From NCBI RefSeq assembly GCF_001904745.1, contig NZ_MRCD01000010.1, positions 62,001 through 126,000 of the forward strand: a DNA stretch of 64,000 nucleotides. The letters are read 5' to 3'. Under the pieces are notes generated by a model. That model saw only the letters and a program-made list of their open reading frames with translations, ran no database searches and was not told where the DNA came from. The DNA is from Calothrix sp. HK-06 (GTDB taxonomy: Bacteria; Cyanobacteriota; Cyanobacteriia; Cyanobacteriales; Nostocaceae). Within the stretch, counting starts at the first letter, position 1. Every line of letters begins with the position of its first letter. This document shows, one piece after another, positions 47,740 through 53,937 of this stretch. The translations under genes were made by a program, and so were the position numbers.

Positions 47740-47768
47740 CCCCCCGCAAATTCGGGGGGCTTTAAATT
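47740..47768. terminator. Strong rho-independent terminator
   Basis: CCCCCCG, loop CAAATT, CGGGGGG, then CTTTAAATT. It sits 10 bases after the GH15-like stop and would also work for the convergent WD40 gene. Confidence 0.85.
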
Positions 47769-47903: not shown

Positions 47904-49676
47904 TTAATAACAAACATGACATTTATTTTGAAACTGCTCATAAGCTTTATTAATTGCCTGCATTACACTTCTAGCTTTCGCAGTCGCATTAACATCCGGA
48001 TGATATAATCGAGCCAATTTATAATATGCCCGTTTCACTTCAGTAGCGCAAGCATCTTTTTCCACATCTAAAATTTCCCACCATTCACCGCACAGCAAAG
48101 GCTCAGTTACTAACTTATTCTTATCTATATTATTCCAAATTATAACAGTACCGTTTTTACCACCACTTACTAACGTATTCCCATTAGAACTAAAAGCAAC
48201 CGCATTACACCCGCTCAACTTTTCTAATATTTTGCCTGTTGCTAAATTCCAAACTTTGACACCATCATTACTAGCACTAGCAAAGATTTTACTATTAGGA
48301 CTAATCGCAAGCGACATGATACTAGCTTGATGTCCAGTTAAGGTTCGCAATAATTGACCCGTTGCTAAATTCCATATCTTAATTGTAGAGTCGGCGCCAC
48401 CACTAATTAAAGTTTTACCATCAGGACTAATTACAACTGCCTGCACTGCTGCTAAATGTCCAGTTAATACTTGTGGTTGTCCGAAAGCTTCTAAATTCCA
48501 TATTCGGATAGTTTTATCGGCGCCACCACTAGCAATAATTTTACCATCAGGGCTGAAAGTAACAGATAAAACAGCTTCTGAATGTCCATTTAAAGTACGT
48601 TTTAACTCTTTTGTGTAACGTCCCCAAAGCCGAATAGTTTTATCACTACTAGCACTAGTAATGATTCTATTATCTGGACTAAAGGCAATTGAGGTAACAA
48701 AACTATTATGGCTGACAGGAGAATCTGAGTAATACGCAGAACTAGAATAATTAAATATACCAAGATATTTTTTTGTCTGTAAGTGCCAACTACTAATTTT
48801 GCGGTCTACACAACCACTGGCAAACATCTCATTATCGGGACTAATAGCAACAGATAAGACGGCGCCAGCCTGCCCAATAAAAGAATAAAGCTTTTTGCCT
48901 GTTTTTATATCCCATTCACAAACACTTCCATCATTACTAGCACTGACAATCGTTTTACTATCAGGACTTATTGCTATTGCATTTACTGCTGCGGTATGTC
49001 CTTTTAAAGTATGTAGGCATTTCCAAATATCTGGTGGCGCCACAGGAAGCGATGCGATTTGCTTACAACTTGCTTTTGGTGCTTCTACTTTTTTATGATA
49101 TTTAGCTTTTAGGGCTTGTAACTCATCCTCAAGTTCCAAAGCTGTAAATTTCTGGTTTAAATCTTCTCCAGATAAAAAAGCCTCTAATTCAGTTACAGCG
49201 GCTGAATAAGCTTCTATCTCCATAACTTTTTCTTCCATGCGGTCAAAAAGTTGTGTGGGAGTTTCAAAGTATTCAACGTCTAACATTTTTGCGACACCAT
49301 AGGCAGCAAGTCCAACAACTGCACCAACGTAAGCCATTGGCGCCGCACCAATACCAAAAGCCAAACCAATTTTAGGCGCAACTAATCCCATTCCACCAAC
49401 AAAACTTGAAACTCGCACCCCACCAACGGCGCCAACTCCCATTAAACCCCAAGCTGTAGCATCTCCATCCGCTATTGCTTTAAAAGCACCATAAGTTGCG
49501 GCGCCAGCAACTGCACCAGCACCAACTAGAGAAGTGGCGCCTATACCGACTGCACCAAAACCTCCTGCTATACCCATTCCACCAACTGTTGCTGAAACTC
49601 CTGCACCTGCAACGGCGCCTGAAGTGATGAATCCTATGCCTGTTTTATTAAAAGGCACCGATTTTAAGTTATTCAT
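47904..49676 (-). CDS. Gly-rich membrane segment / WD40 propeller / J-domain fusion protein
   Basis: 590 residues in three parts. 1-130: almost pure Gly/Ala/Val helices (GAVAGAGVSATVGGMGIAGG, GAVVGLAAYG), a glycine-zipper pattern that can enter membranes. 140-200: a charged coiled coil. 210-520: seven WD40-type repeats (LKGHTAAVNAIAISPDSKTIVSASNDGSV and kin). 528-585: a J domain with WWEILDVEKDACATEVKRAYYKLARLYHPDVN including HPD. It would recruit an Hsp70 to a membrane site organised by the propeller. The start lies 30 bp after the coiled-coil gene, so the three frames form one operon. Cellular role unknown. Confidence 0.85.
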   Translation of the reverse strand: MNNLKSVPFNKTGIGFITSGAVAGAGVSATVGGMGIAGGFGAVGIGATSLVGAGAVAGAATYGAFKAIADGDATAWGLMGVGAVGGVRVSSFVGGMGLVAPKIGLAFGIGAAPMAYVGAVVGLAAYGVAKMLDVEYFETPTQLFDRMEEKVMEIEAYSAAVTELEAFLSGEDLNQKFTALELEDELQALKAKYHKKVEAPKASCKQIASLPVAPPDIWKCLHTLKGHTAAVNAIAISPDSKTIVSASNDGSVCEWDIKTGKKLYSFIGQAGAVLSVAISPDNEMFASGCVDRKISSWHLQTKKYLGIFNYSSSAYYSDSPVSHNSFVTSIAFSPDNRIITSASSDKTIRLWGRYTKELKRTLNGHSEAVLSVTFSPDGKIIASGGADKTIRIWNLEAFGQPQVLTGHLAAVQAVVISPDGKTLISGGADSTIKIWNLATGQLLRTLTGHQASIMSLAISPNSKIFASASNDGVKVWNLATGKILEKLSGCNAVAFSSNGNTLVSGGKNGTVIIWNNIDKNKLVTEPLLCGEWWEILDVEKDACATEVKRAYYKLARLYHPDVNATAKARSVMQAINKAYEQFQNKCHVCY

Positions 49677-49706
49677 AATCGCTTAGTATTATTTATAGTT
49701 AGGACA

Positions 49707-50072
49707 TTACATTTCATCTAATTGTTTTCGTAGTAACTCTAATTCATCATCGACATCACTATTATTTATAGTAGTTATATTGCTATCAAAATACAATTTG
49801 AAACTTTCAAGAGTCGCTAAGTTATTTTTGAGAAGTTTTACTGTCTCCGTCTGTTGCTTCATCTGAGCTTCGATTAAATCTATGTACTGGTATTTAGCTG
49901 TTTTTGATATCAGCTTTTCTAGAATCAATGCATTGTCATGATTGTTAGTACTCGTTTGCAAAGCTAGTACCATTTCTTGTTGTAATTTTGTTGCTTCTTC
50001 CTGAGCTTTTTGGTAATCTTCATTCATTGATGCTAGTCTGTTCGTTGCTTCTTGTATAGCTTGCTCAGTTTC
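49707..50072 (-). pseudogene. Coiled-coil (PspA-like) frame following an in-frame TAG
   Basis: The frame is open from the codon directly after the upstream TAG (ETEQAIQEATNRLAS) and contains an ATG at 50027 that would give 106 residues (MNEDYQKAQEEATKLQQEM, then LILEKLISKTAKYQYIDLIEAQMKQQTETVKLLKNNLATLESFKLYF), ending in DDELELLRKQLDEM. No good ribosome site precedes the ATG. It is most simply the C-terminal part of the upstream gene cut off by a CAG-to-TAG type mutation. Readthrough or internal initiation are alternatives. All helical, no catalytic motif. Confidence 0.6.
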
Positions 50073-50624
50073 CTATATAGAAATTTTCAATAAATCTTTT
50101 GGTTTTGATTCTTCTTGCTTCTGTAGTTGAGGCAGATTCAAACCGAAAATTTGTTCCTTCAACACTTCCAATTCTTTATCTATATCCTCTACTTTATGTT
50201 GAGGTTCATTTAATTTTAATTGCTTGATATCTTCATTATTTTGTGTAATATTGTGTGATACTAATTGTTCTTGATTCCTTTGTATCTTAGGGATAGAACT
50301 GCTACTTAACTTATGAATTTGACCTTTGTAAAAACTTAATTTTTGATTGATAGAAGCTAGCTGCGGCATTTGTTTTCCTGCAAGCTTTGCAAGCCTCTCA
50401 ACAATCGCTTCGTGACGTTCCATCTGAAATTTGGCTTTGCTTACCAAATCATGATTATTTTCCTGAACTGCTGATTCATATATATTTGTCCACTTATACA
50501 AATCAGATAAGGCTTGCTGATAATCCCTTTGAGCAATAGTTTCAGCAAAACGAATTCTAGCTTTCGCTTCATTTAAACTGGCTAAAGCTTGCTGCACTTG
50601 ATAGTCTTGACTGTCGGTTCCCAT
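50073..50624 (-). CDS. PspA/IM30-like coiled-coil protein, possibly truncated by an amber codon
   Basis: 183 residues, mostly helix: QQALASLNEAKARIRFAETIAQRDYQQALSDLYKWTNIYESAVQENNHDLVSKAKFQMERHEAIVERLAKL, like the central hairpin of PspA/IM30 membrane-stress proteins. A polar linker follows, then VEDIDKELEVLKEQI. The end motif is echoed at the end of the downstream frame (VDDELELLRKQL), suggesting an internal duplication of one module. It ends with TAG at 50073 with the frame open beyond it. First gene of the unit with the WD40/J protein. Confidence 0.6.
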   Translation of the reverse strand: MGTDSQDYQVQQALASLNEAKARIRFAETIAQRDYQQALSDLYKWTNIYESAVQENNHDLVSKAKFQMERHEAIVERLAKLAGKQMPQLASINQKLSFYKGQIHKLSSSSIPKIQRNQEQLVSHNITQNNEDIKQLKLNEPQHKVEDIDKELEVLKEQIFGLNLPQLQKQEESKPKDLLKISI

Positions 50625-50735
50625 ATTTAAACAATAGTAATTTTTTATACTATTATAAGCTTCAGACGATTTGAGTACTTCACTGTAAACAAGGAAATAT
50701 TTTTAAACTTTGTGTAAACTACCCGGTTAAATACG

Positions 50736-50933
50736 ATGCTCGCCTGTAATAACTGGCGTGGCACACCTAACAACGTTTTTTGTGCAGTACACGCCGCAGC
50801 CGAGGCTAAAGAAGAAGTCAAATTAGATACAACAGCTAGGCTTTTACAACGGGGTATTAGTCCGCAGGAAGTCGCAGCAGCACTAGAGTTAGATTTAGAA
50901 ACTGTAAATAATATAGCAAGCACGCAGTTGTAA
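50736..50933 (+). CDS. Small helical protein or fragment
   Basis: 65 residues: DTTARLLQRGISPQEVAAALELDLETVNNIA resembles the helical C terminus of cyanobacterial Rpn/PD-(D/E)XK transposase-associated nucleases (LLxxGxSxExVAxxTxL). No nuclease domain precedes it. It could be a remnant or a small independent gene. Low confidence. Confidence 0.3.
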   Translation: MLACNNWRGTPNNVFCAVHAAAEAKEEVKLDTTARLLQRGISPQEVAAALELDLETVNNIASTQL

Positions 50934-51066
50934 GCTGTAAGCTTTACCAATTTCAGACAGGGTGCCCATTTGTAAAAACTTATGCGCCGCCTGTCATTTA
51001 TTTTTTACATAATTTGATAAAATATCAATATTATGAGAACTGAACACGGCTGTCTCATACTTGTAG

Positions 51067-51148: not shown

Positions 51149-52581
51149 GGTTCTTCAGTAGTTGTTATGCTAAACTAACAATTAAAATGCCAAGCTAGTA
51201 AACATCTAACTCGGAAATTTTCAAAATTTTTAAACCCATAAGCCGAGCGCTTAATTAATTTGATTTTATTATTGATGCCTTCGACGGTGCCACTAGTCGT
51301 ACCATTATCAAAGTAAGCAATAATTTCATCAAACCAGCGAATAAAAGTATTGTTACTCTTTGGAAAATATGTTTTAGCCTTTGAAAGCCACATACCTAGT
51401 TTAAAAACTGCTGGATACCAATGCTTAGTTTTATTAAAAATTGTTCTAAGTTTTTCTTTTAATTCATGCATTACTTTTAAAGTGGGACATACTGCTTTTA
51501 GTTGAATTAATTTATTTTTTTGTTCATCATTTAAGTTTAATTCGTTTTTTAATAAAGCGTATTTACTATTTTTTAATGCTTCTAATATTTTTTCATTTTT
51601 AGATTTTTCATCCGATGTTGTTACTAATTTAATTATTTCTTCTATTTGACGTTTTTCTTGCTTTCTCTGCGTATCTAATTCTTTATTTACTTGTACCATT
51701 ACGTGAAATCTATCTGCTACTACTTGAGCATTGGGTATTAATTCTATCACTACATTTTTGTAACCTTGCCACAAATCTATGCTCACTTCCTTTATTTGCT
51801 CTAAAACCTCAACTCCCCAACTTGTAAGAGTTTCCTCTATTACTCCTTGTGTGCGCGCGCTCAAAATAGCAATTGGCTTAGACGTATCTAAATCTATCAA
51901 AACTGCACAGTAATTACCCTTTCCTTTAATTAAGGCTATTTCATCTATTCCAAGTCTTTTTAAATTCGTAGGTTTCGTTAAATTTATTTGTTCAGACGCA
52001 TCTTTTAGCATTCTTTCTATCTCTTCTGTTGTTACAATCCCTTTTGATGCTACGCTCTGTATATCGTTTTCTAAAACTTCTTGTATTATTTTATTTGCTA
52101 GACGTTGTGTATAGGTTCTTTTCTTTTGGGCAAAATTAAATTCTTCACTAAAAGGTTTTTTACAAATTTTGCATTTAAATTGGCGCCGATTTATCTCTAA
52201 AAAAATTTGTTTCTCGCCAAAAGGTAAATCTTTAATAATATGACGATGATTTTGATGTAGTTTATGACTTTCCGTACCACAAGACGGACATACACCATAC
52301 AGCTTTATTGGCTCTGTTCGTAAAATTATTCCGATTTCGTTATAAATACTGTGCGATATAACTTTTACTTCATCTATATCCAGAATTTGTGATAATATTT
52401 TTATATCTTTTTTATTGACCATGACTGTAAATGTACCCTAAAATACAATGAGCATATATACAGTCAATAATAAATGAAGCCTACAAGTCAATCCTATCAA
52501 GCATTTTTGTAATAGTTTTTAAAATAAATTAATAATTCACATTTATATTTAACAATTTAGCATAACAACTACTGAAGAACC
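51149..52581 (-). mobile_element. Intact ISL3-family insertion sequence, 1433 bp
   Basis: Perfect 26-bp terminal inverted repeats beginning GGTTCTTCAGTAGTTGTTAT (51149-51174 and 52556-52581). Flanking 8-mers ATAATTAA (51141-51148) and ATAATTTA (52582-52589) match at 7 of 8 positions, as expected for an ISL3 8-bp target duplication with one later change. It carries a single complete transposase. Confidence 0.93.
51175..52422 (-). CDS. ISL3 family transposase
   Basis: 415 residues, full length. N-terminal zinc ribbon CPSCGTESHKLHQNH, then FKCKICKKPF, a helix-turn-helix region, the DDE domain with LGIDEIALIKGKGNYCAVLIDLDTSKPI and DLWQGYKNVVIELIPNAQVVADRFHV, and the C-terminal GTVEGINNKIKLIKRSAYGFKNFENFRVR. 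All three acidic residues appear present, so the element may still be active. Almost no GGCGCC sites (one) compared with host genes. Confidence 0.95.
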   Translation of the reverse strand: MVNKKDIKILSQILDIDEVKVISHSIYNEIGIILRTEPIKLYGVCPSCGTESHKLHQNHRHIIKDLPFGEKQIFLEINRRQFKCKICKKPFSEEFNFAQKKRTYTQRLANKIIQEVLENDIQSVASKGIVTTEEIERMLKDASEQINLTKPTNLKRLGIDEIALIKGKGNYCAVLIDLDTSKPIAILSARTQGVIEETLTSWGVEVLEQIKEVSIDLWQGYKNVVIELIPNAQVVADRFHVMVQVNKELDTQRKQEKRQIEEIIKLVTTSDEKSKNEKILEALKNSKYALLKNELNLNDEQKNKLIQLKAVCPTLKVMHELKEKLRTIFNKTKHWYPAVFKLGMWLSKAKTYFPKSNNTFIRWFDEIIAYFDNGTTSGTVEGINNKIKLIKRSAYGFKNFENFRVRCLLAWHFNC

Positions 52582-52737: not shown

Positions 52738-53937
52738 ATGACATCAGTAGATTTTCCTAAGCATAAGAAGGCTAAAGCTTTAAAGCCTGGAAGTCGGCGC
52801 CCTGCTAAAGAGCTATGCAGTGAGTGTGGACTTTGTGATACATATTATGTTCATTATGTCAAGGAAGCTTGCGCTTTTATTAATCAGCAGTTTGAAACTT
52901 TAGAACTACAAAGTCACGGCGCCACTCGTAATCTTGATAATCCCGATGAGGTTTATTTTGGCGTGCATCAAGAAATGATGGCGGCACGTAAACAGCAACC
53001 TATAGAAGGCGCCCAGTGGACGGGTATAGTAAGTTCGATTGCTATCGAAATGCTGAATCGCGGTATGGTCGAAGGTGTTGTTTGTGTACAAAACACAAAG
53101 GAAGATAGATTTGGCCCAATGCCTGTTATTGCTCGCACTCCTGAAGAAGTATTGGCTGCACGTGTTAATAAACCGACTTTATCACCGAATCTTTCGGTGT
53201 TGGAACAAATTGAACAGTCAGGAATGAAGCGGTTGTTGGTAATTGGTGTGGGTTGCCAAATACAAGCACTACGAGCGGTTGAGAAACAATTGGGGTTAGA
53301 GAAGCTTTATGTTTTAGGTACTCCTTGTGTTGATAATGTGACACGCGCTGGGTTACAGAAATTTCTAGATACTACAAGTAAATCACCTGATACGGTCGTT
53401 TATTACGAGTTCATGCAAGATTTTCGAGTTCACTTTAAGCACGAAGATGGTTCAACAGAGTTAGTACCATTTTTTGGTTTAAATACAAAAGAACTCAAAG
53501 ATGTATTTGCACCATCGTGTATGAGTTGCTTTGACTATGTAAATTCTTTGGCTGATTTAGTTGTTGGGTATATGGGGGCGCCGTTTGGTTGGCAGTGGAT
53601 TTTGGTGCGAAATGATATAGGTAAAGAAATGCTCGATTTGGTTGAAGACCAAATTGATAGGCAACCTGTAATGTCACAGGGAGATAGAAAAGCCGCAGTT
53701 CAACAAAGTATACCCGCTTACGATAAGGGCGTGACTTTGCCAATGTGGGCAGCTAAATTAATGGGAGTAGTGATTGAAAAAATTGGACCCAAAGGTTTAG
53801 AATATGCGCGTTTTTCGATTGATTCGCACTTTACGCGCAATTATTTGTACGTAAAAAGACAACATCCAGAGAAGTTAGAAGCACATGTACCAGAGTTCGC
53901 AAAGCGAATCGTCGGACAATATAAATTACCTGAATAG
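52738..53937 (+). CDS. bciB: Ferredoxin-dependent 3,8-divinyl chlorophyllide a 8-vinyl reductase
   Basis: Reduces the C8 vinyl group of divinyl (proto)chlorophyllide in chlorophyll synthesis, with ferredoxin as donor. 399 residues of the F420-hydrogenase beta-subunit family. The Fe-S ligands are in CSECGLCDTYYVHYVKEAC (C27, C30, C33, C45), GVGCQIQALRAVEKQLGL, LGTPCVDNVTR, FAPSCMSCFDYVNSLADLVVGYMGAPFG. Closest remembered homologue is Synechocystis Slr1923. The plant 7-hydroxymethyl chlorophyll reductase is a paralogue, so the reaction is inferred. A GGGCGGTGCCC-type palindrome follows. Confidence 0.85.
   Translation: MTSVDFPKHKKAKALKPGSRRPAKELCSECGLCDTYYVHYVKEACAFINQQFETLELQSHGATRNLDNPDEVYFGVHQEMMAARKQQPIEGAQWTGIVSSIAIEMLNRGMVEGVVCVQNTKEDRFGPMPVIARTPEEVLAARVNKPTLSPNLSVLEQIEQSGMKRLLVIGVGCQIQALRAVEKQLGLEKLYVLGTPCVDNVTRAGLQKFLDTTSKSPDTVVYYEFMQDFRVHFKHEDGSTELVPFFGLNTKELKDVFAPSCMSCFDYVNSLADLVVGYMGAPFGWQWILVRNDIGKEMLDLVEDQIDRQPVMSQGDRKAAVQQSIPAYDKGVTLPMWAAKLMGVVIEKIGPKGLEYARFSIDSHFTRNYLYVKRQHPEKLEAHVPEFAKRIVGQYKLPE

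Follow-up and report, generated by a model that had tools for sequence, protein, structure and literature searches.

The filamentous cyanobacterium Calothrix sp. HK-06 (genome, 9.99 Mb) encodes a 590-amino-acid (aa) protein that joins in one chain a Gly/Ala-rich tandem repeat, a C-terminal segment of Vipp1/PspA (helices alpha4-alpha5), a WD40 beta-propeller, and a J domain. The gene of this fusion protein lies on the minus strand of a 64,000-nucleotide (nt) stretch, hereafter the window (assembly GCF_001904745.1, contig NZ_MRCD01000010.1, positions 62,001 to 126,000). It follows, after a gap of 30 nt, a gene for a Vipp1-like coiled coil (the coil gene), and the two occupy three minus-strand open reading frames (ORFs) of 183, 106, and 590 aa (Table 1). 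With moderate confidence, we propose that the fusion protein serves as a J-domain co-chaperone dedicated to Vipp1/PspA polymers, on which it would dock by its borrowed alpha4-alpha5 segment and to which it would deliver DnaK. It may be a missing helper through which Hsp70 acts on polymers of the Vipp1 type.

The fusion protein carries a C-terminal Vipp1/PspA segment

A preliminary description of the locus, made from the DNA sequence, had passed over residues 138 to 194, which link the Gly/Ala-rich repeat to the propeller. These residues matched positions 161 to 215 of PF04012 (PspA_IM30), with E = 4.9e-5 when searched alone and E = 0.0016 in a search of their own genome. Comparison of profile A1 with the PDB returned nine sequences with E < 1e-4, all of them Vipp1/PspA and spanning Nostoc Vipp1 residues 163 to 217, with Vipp1 itself at 5.8e-6. 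A score model was built on two Vipp1/PspA proteins of the host genome and seven proteins in which the repeat is joined to a PspA domain (repeat-PspA proteins, described below). All 39 homologues scored between 24.0 and 46.0 bits under this model, and the best shuffled sequence reached 8.5 (786 scored of 975 made). A generic coiled coil is an unlikely account of the linker, given these shuffles and PDB matches specific to Vipp1/PspA. By homology, the linker is the C-terminal alpha4-alpha5 of Vipp1/PspA.

Conservation was counted in alignments A2 (26 sequences) and A3 (39 sequences), for which full-length homologues were picked, and the counts hold for intact copies. Residues R146, E148, F177, and E185 were invariant across the 39 homologues. 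F177 aligns with Vipp1 F197, and L180 (present in 33 of 39, with Trp in five) aligns with Vipp1 L200. The double substitution F197K/L200K severely inhibited Vipp1 self-assembly, with a minor fraction still making rings and filaments, and removal of alpha5-alpha6 abolished both structures (PMC8281802; see also PMC11919738). Homology and contact residues together indicate that the fusion protein keeps an element by which Vipp1 subunits grip one another.

The WD40 repeats and the J domain, both named in the preliminary description together with the HPD motif, are certain. PF00400 matched in seven stretches (E = 2e-73), and the AlphaFold model has confident beta strands throughout residues 217 to 517, with block-mean predicted local distance difference test (pLDDT) values mostly of 87 to 98 and one block at 58. 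The J domain scored 54.8 bits against PF00226 (Pfam cut-off, 27.8), and its model is fair. The HPD motif stands at residues 559 to 561 and is kept in all 39 aligned homologues. Over the whole fusion gene, the ratio of nonsynonymous to synonymous substitution rates (dN/dS) was 0.21 to 0.34 across six pairs.

The N-terminal region consists of two Gly/Ala-rich repeats, each about 60 residues long and 47% identical to one another (E = 3e-13). It had no Pfam match at E <= 0.1, and PHROGs gave weak matches only, none of them to the fusion N terminus. Hydropathy in 19-residue windows was borderline (0.3 to 1.8). The Gly-zipper first seen here had to be given up, as the motif GxxxGxxxG occurred zero times, versus a mean of 1.8 in 5,000 shuffles. 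The membrane-type helices of the same description, and insertion of the repeat into a membrane, remain inferences. We also rejected a defense-system reading of the locus: PADLOC matched the fusion once, within the WD40 region only, and the 106-aa coil ORF weakly, to ThsB (E = 0.0074).

Distribution and gene order among cyanobacteria

Fusion residues 1 to 192 found a match at E <= 0.001 in 140 of 192 genomes of the window's family, and the best 80 loci by E-value out of these 140 genomes (E <= 1.5e-53, one per genome) make up the family set. A second set holds the best 80 of 85 loci; all 80 are cyanobacterial, judged by record titles, and their species are partly common to the family set. Gene starts were taken at the first ATG, GTG, or TTG of a frame. 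Loci are cited by L numbers, of which some coincide: L236 and L267 are one record, as are L120 and L200 (Scytonema hyalinum), L268 equals L287, and L269 equals L290.

All four parts occurred in one ORF at 66 of 80 family-set loci and 61 of 80 second-set loci, and this joining exceeds chance. Four-part ORFs outside the window's family were found at L264, L265, L267, L270, L271, and L272 and, going by record titles, at L234, L236 (the same record as L267), L237, L241, and L242. At second-set loci L232, L235, L243, and L244, the repeat was not found in one ORF with either the Vipp1 segment or the propeller.

Additional genes of related composition adjoin the fusion gene in places. Its immediate neighbor is a further gene matching both J and WD40 (500 aa, with the J domain leading) at L234 (4035-5537) and a WD40-J gene of 375 aa at L289 (807-1934), which suggests duplication and domain shuffling. 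Recurrent small genes lie 5' of the fusion gene at L073, L076, L078, L094, L120, and L156 (clusters C10 and C23 in part); they include a repeat-only protein of 133 to 145 aa and, by eye, an HNH-like gene of about 125 aa.

An upstream coil was defined as a coil gene or repeat-plus-coil gene on the same strand within 2.5 kb 5' of the fusion gene, and the counts include copies that are not intact. The preliminary description had proposed conserved adjacency as a check on the pairing, and adjacency was found: a coil lies upstream at 22 of 80 family-set and 21 of 80 second-set loci, in three and two of these, respectively, as a repeat-plus-coil gene instead of a plain coil. Coil and fusion genes overlap by 17 nt at six family-set and seven second-set loci, which amount to nine genomes, four being shared. 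A single-sequence search, with up to 17 candidates scored per genome and its coil counts being lower bounds, detected a coil in at least 24 of 192 genomes, 18 of them (hand count) with the coil 5' of the fusion.

The coil gene is Vipp1 derived and interrupted in the window

The coil had been labeled PspA-like, and its relatives bear the label out: 17 of 18 aligned coils matched PF04012 at E <= 0.01 (best, 6.9e-23). The window coil (E = 0.06 and 0.074) and the copy of its closest relative, G030 (19.2 bits), fall under the curated PF04012 cut-off of 33.9 bits, which is exceeded at L120 (81.9 bits), L084 (52.3), and L160 (65.8). In profile searches, query positions 10 to 170 matched Nostoc Vipp1 (6zvr; E = 2.7e-20), and positions 173 to 270, the second hairpin, matched sll0617 (E = 1.2e-13). 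By these matches, the coil is a true Vipp1 derivative with two tandem hairpins.

The AlphaFold model of the G030-type coil (mean pLDDT, 61) shows two hairpins, two short low-confidence helices between them, and a tail helix. Fold comparison aligned it with 4whe (Z 11.8, 2.4 A, 114 residues), a Z value common among helical hairpins, and Foldseek with the model gave no E below 0.001. Family membership rests on sequence because the Foldseek E-values are weak and a VIA-align Z of about 11 fails to separate Vipp1 from other helical hairpins. The match of the coil begins at Vipp1 residue 36, and by eye no stretch resembling the membrane helix alpha0 was found ahead of the hairpin in the 18 aligned coils. 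A tail resembling the last Vipp1 helix (alpha6) was seen by eye in five of the 18 and in the 106-aa ORF of the window, and was absent in the rest.

The 183-aa and 106-aa ORFs share one frame and are separated by a single TAG, where the locus of G030 (L064) has one ORF of 305 aa, 95% identical to the first part of the window coil. The single minus-strand unit of the preliminary description stands as regards strand; its coil is not one intact gene. The TAG is codon 184 and falls early in the helix that opens the second hairpin (residues 175 to 224 in the relative's model), and the next ATG lies 15 codons past it, so that a second product would miss about 25 residues of that hairpin. Because of the position of the stop and this shortening, the coil in the window strain is probably impaired, although the TAG may be a sequencing error. 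Between the window and G030, dN/dS of the coil was 0.25 up to the stop and 0.43 beyond it, and between the window and G101 it was 0.26 and 0.50, all from few changes; the higher values past the stop hint at relaxation.

Repeat-PspA proteins and other PspA paralogues

The repeat also occurs with a near-complete PspA domain in one chain, as at L120 (371 aa; PF04012, E = 1.2e-41) and L150 (381 aa; 1.4e-47). Such repeat-PspA proteins, of 343 to 384 aa, were observed at L120, L150 to L155, and L278 to L281, in several cyanobacterial families (L278 to L281 lie outside that of the window). By eye, their repeat is placed between the first helix and the hairpin, and they could be membrane-held PspA variants. 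We suggest that the fusion arose when a repeat-PspA protein lost its hairpin and gained the propeller and J domain. In Scytonema hyalinum (L120/L200), a repeat-PspA gene, a coil gene, a repeat-only gene, and the fusion gene all stand in one row.

At C204, the host genome carries a tandem pair of Vipp1/PspA genes. At C208 (L157, 2995-3696), it has a second PspA-like ORF of 233 aa with two PF04012 stretches (E = 3.1e-22). A CHAT-domain ORF (E = 9.3e-8) lies nearby (L157, 4097-4882), and this PspA-like coil is possibly tied to a CHAT system.

Proposed mechanism and alternative explanations

In the mechanism we favor, the alpha4-alpha5 segment would bind Vipp1-family subunits at their hairpin tips, in the way that alpha5 joins subunits within Vipp1 rings. 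The fusion would be held at a membrane by its Gly/Ala-rich repeat, the propeller would bind a further partner, and the C-terminal J domain would deliver DnaK, by which the polymer would be built up or taken apart. The double-hairpin coil would serve as an optional acceptor subunit without alpha0. No coil was found upstream at 58 of 80 family-set loci; the fusion therefore does not depend on the coil, which cannot be obligatory, and ordinary Vipp1 is the likelier general client. It would be the client in the window strain as well, given the probable impairment of the coil there. The scaffold of the preliminary description, bringing Hsp70 to a PspA-like site, survives in part: Vipp1-derived parts in both proteins, the upstream placement of the coil, and the precedent of CDJ2 (below) speak for it, and the 58 loci and the interrupted coil speak against it.

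Besides these 58 loci, several observations weigh against the proposed co-chaperone role. For the Vipp1 segment by itself, dN/dS was 0.12, 0.18, 0.40, 0.59, 1.07, and 1.25 in six pairs (54 to 66 codons), a spread in which strong constraint on the segment is not evident in close pairs. The segment falls below the profile threshold in relatives of about 560 aa (L275, L276, and L277), no J match was found in the homologues at L263 and L268, and the homologue at L269 consists of the repeat and Vipp1 segment only. AlphaFold gave no confident structure for residues 1 to 138 (block-mean pLDDT, 19 to 42). Selection on the coil is weak (dN/dS of 0.29 to 0.49 in six pairs), and some upstream coils are fragments (57, 182, and 189 aa). 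An N-terminal profile matched at E <= 1e-8 in at least 44 of 386 sampled genomes of the phylum (up to eight candidates scored per genome; a lower bound), so the fusion cannot be a general Vipp1 factor. DnaJ is absent from the main text of a Synechocystis Vipp1 pull-down study (PMC4297356), whose strain was not checked for the fusion.

The strongest alternative, which we consider possible though unlikely, is that the fusion is a J protein held at a membrane and serving a general or different purpose. Its Vipp1 segment would be a fossil linker retained for structural reasons, its propeller would pick the client, and the coil gene would lie nearby only because the spot collects PspA paralogues. 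Such a protein would account for the many loci without an upstream coil, for the degenerate segment of the shorter relatives, and for the two close pairs in which dN/dS of the segment comes near 1. It also gains from the neighborhood. An FrhB-like gene flanks the fusion at 46 of 80 family-set and 45 of 80 second-set loci and is a commoner neighbor than the coil; at L159, L160, and L164, the coil gene adjoins the FrhB-like gene with no fusion gene alongside. However, the four invariant residues of the segment exceed what a passive linker needs, and the 17-nt overlap in nine genomes suggests coupled translation.

For the window strain in particular, it is improbable that the module is in decay and its two proteins have no joint function. 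The in-frame stop and the shortened second hairpin fit decay, as do members of the same genus: the coil is truncated at L066 and was not found at L070 or L116, and L066 and L116 also have a broken fusion ORF. The window fusion ORF is nevertheless intact with all four parts, and comparison of the window with G030 gives a dN/dS of 0.29 for the fusion and of 0.32 over the coil frame.

Very improbable, finally, is a fusion that acts mainly as a cap, its alpha5 segment plugging hairpin tips to limit Vipp1 polymer growth and its J domain only tuning this: alpha5 contacts are essential for Vipp1 polymers (PMC8281802), and L263 and L287 retain the other three parts without a J match, but the HPD motif, invariant in 39 of 39 homologues picked for full length, points to use of Hsp70.

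Other features of the locus

An ISL3-family transposase gene separates the coil gene from an FrhB/FdhB-family gene, putatively bciB; clustering placed no relative of the transposase at the other 79 family-set loci. The 101-aa minus-strand ORF at 50645-50950 was rejected as a gene, with no Pfam match and an NCBIfam match of only E = 0.049. By eye, the plus strand opposite it looks like the 3' terminus of a gene for DUF2887, a gene that is whole in a similar place at L011. Scans for regulatory sites were uninformative, with 17 promoter-like sites in the window versus 12.3 expected and one terminator-like site (plus strand, 47740-47759) versus 2.4 expected.

Table 1. Features of the fusion locus (window coordinates)
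Feature	Coordinates	Strand	Basis
Fusion protein, 590 aa: Gly/Ala-rich tandem repeat, Vipp1 alpha4-alpha5, WD40, J	47904..49676	-	ORF, Pfam, alignments A2/A3, AlphaFold
Gly/Ala-rich hydrophobic domain, residues 9-134, two repeats	49275..49652	-	Internal repeat, motif count, conservation
Vipp1/PspA C-terminal segment, alpha4-alpha5, residues 138-194	49095..49265	-	PF04012, PDB profile matches, conservation, shuffles
WD40 beta-propeller, residues 218-520	48117..49025	-	PF00400, AlphaFold
J domain, residues 530-588; HPD at 48002-47994	47913..48089	-	PF00226, alignment
Vipp1-derived double-hairpin coil gene, whole frame with in-frame TAG at 50073-50075	49707..50624	-	ORFs, intact relative L064, PF04012 in relatives
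183-aa ORF: first hairpin unit, inter-unit stretch, first few residues of second unit	50073..50624	-	
106-aa ORF: second hairpin unit minus about 25 first residues, Vipp1-like C-terminal tail	49707..50027	-	
ISL3-family transposase, between FrhB-like gene and coil gene	51175..52422	-	PF01610, E = 2.5e-63
FrhB/FdhB-family gene	52738..53937	+	Pfam; NCBIfam matches below cut-offs

Comparison with known systems

In Chlamydomonas, HSP70B, CDJ2, and CGE1 drive both assembly and disassembly of VIPP1 in vitro (PMC10602608, PMC6882379). A 2013 survey reported no CDJ2 homologue in cyanobacteria (PMC3720927), and Synechocystis Vipp1 binds or co-purifies with DnaK2 and DnaK3 (PMC4297356). A fusion with a Vipp1 contact helix and an invariant HPD motif fits this vacant J-protein place. 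None of the papers returned by full-text searches, from which subscription papers were mostly excluded, describes the combination by title or abstract. The preliminary description knew of no such system, and no description of this composition was found in the papers searched; the working principle, Hsp70-J control of VIPP1, is already known from CDJ2-HSP70B-VIPP1.

Two further bodies of work come near. Ravi et al. (2024; PMC11237479) report that more than 98% of PspA homologues vary little in architecture and describe tandem repeats as well as fusions with NlpC/P60 and PspAA. The phage-shock protein contexts they present likewise link PspA to chaperone-like partners, one operon type having an AAA+ ATPase with propeller repeats; the terms DnaJ, WD40, "J domain," and "glycine" have zero occurrences in the main text of that paper. 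DnaK3-DnaJ3, which the proposed pair resembles, is a cyanobacterial Hsp70-J pair tied to thylakoids, and the passages covered make no mention of a Vipp1 segment (PMC7281324).

Within the ESCRT-III superfamily, the two proteins resemble Vipp1/IM30 and PspA in complementary parts, the coil by two Vipp1-type hairpins and in five of 18 cases a tail, and the fusion by alpha4-alpha5. Unlike Vipp1, neither is whole: the coil is without alpha0 and the fusion without the hairpin. By analogy with CDJ2-HSP70B-CGE1, the role of the fusion would be that of a J-domain protein directing Hsp70 to a Vipp1 polymer. CDJ2, however, belongs to the DJC73 clade and is a protein in its own right, whereas the fusion includes a helix of Vipp1 together with a propeller and a Gly/Ala repeat. 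In the uncoating of clathrin by auxilin and Hsc70, a J domain on a lattice-binding body calls Hsp70 to the coat. This pair has been drawn as an analogy for IM30 (PMC6882379), and the likeness of auxilin to the fusion is one of analogy only. In its boldest form, which we regard as doubtful, the comparison would make the module a Vipp1 subunit split between two polypeptides, a double-hairpin acceptor that lacks the membrane helix, and a plug formed by alpha5 and joined to repeat, propeller, and J domain. Recruitment of Hsp70 would then be part of the polymer itself, in an auxilin-like uncoating of an ESCRT-III-like lattice. For the cyanobacteria that have it, the fusion, as a J protein that includes the Vipp1 contact helix, offers a concrete candidate for the link still missing in the control of Vipp1/PspA polymers.

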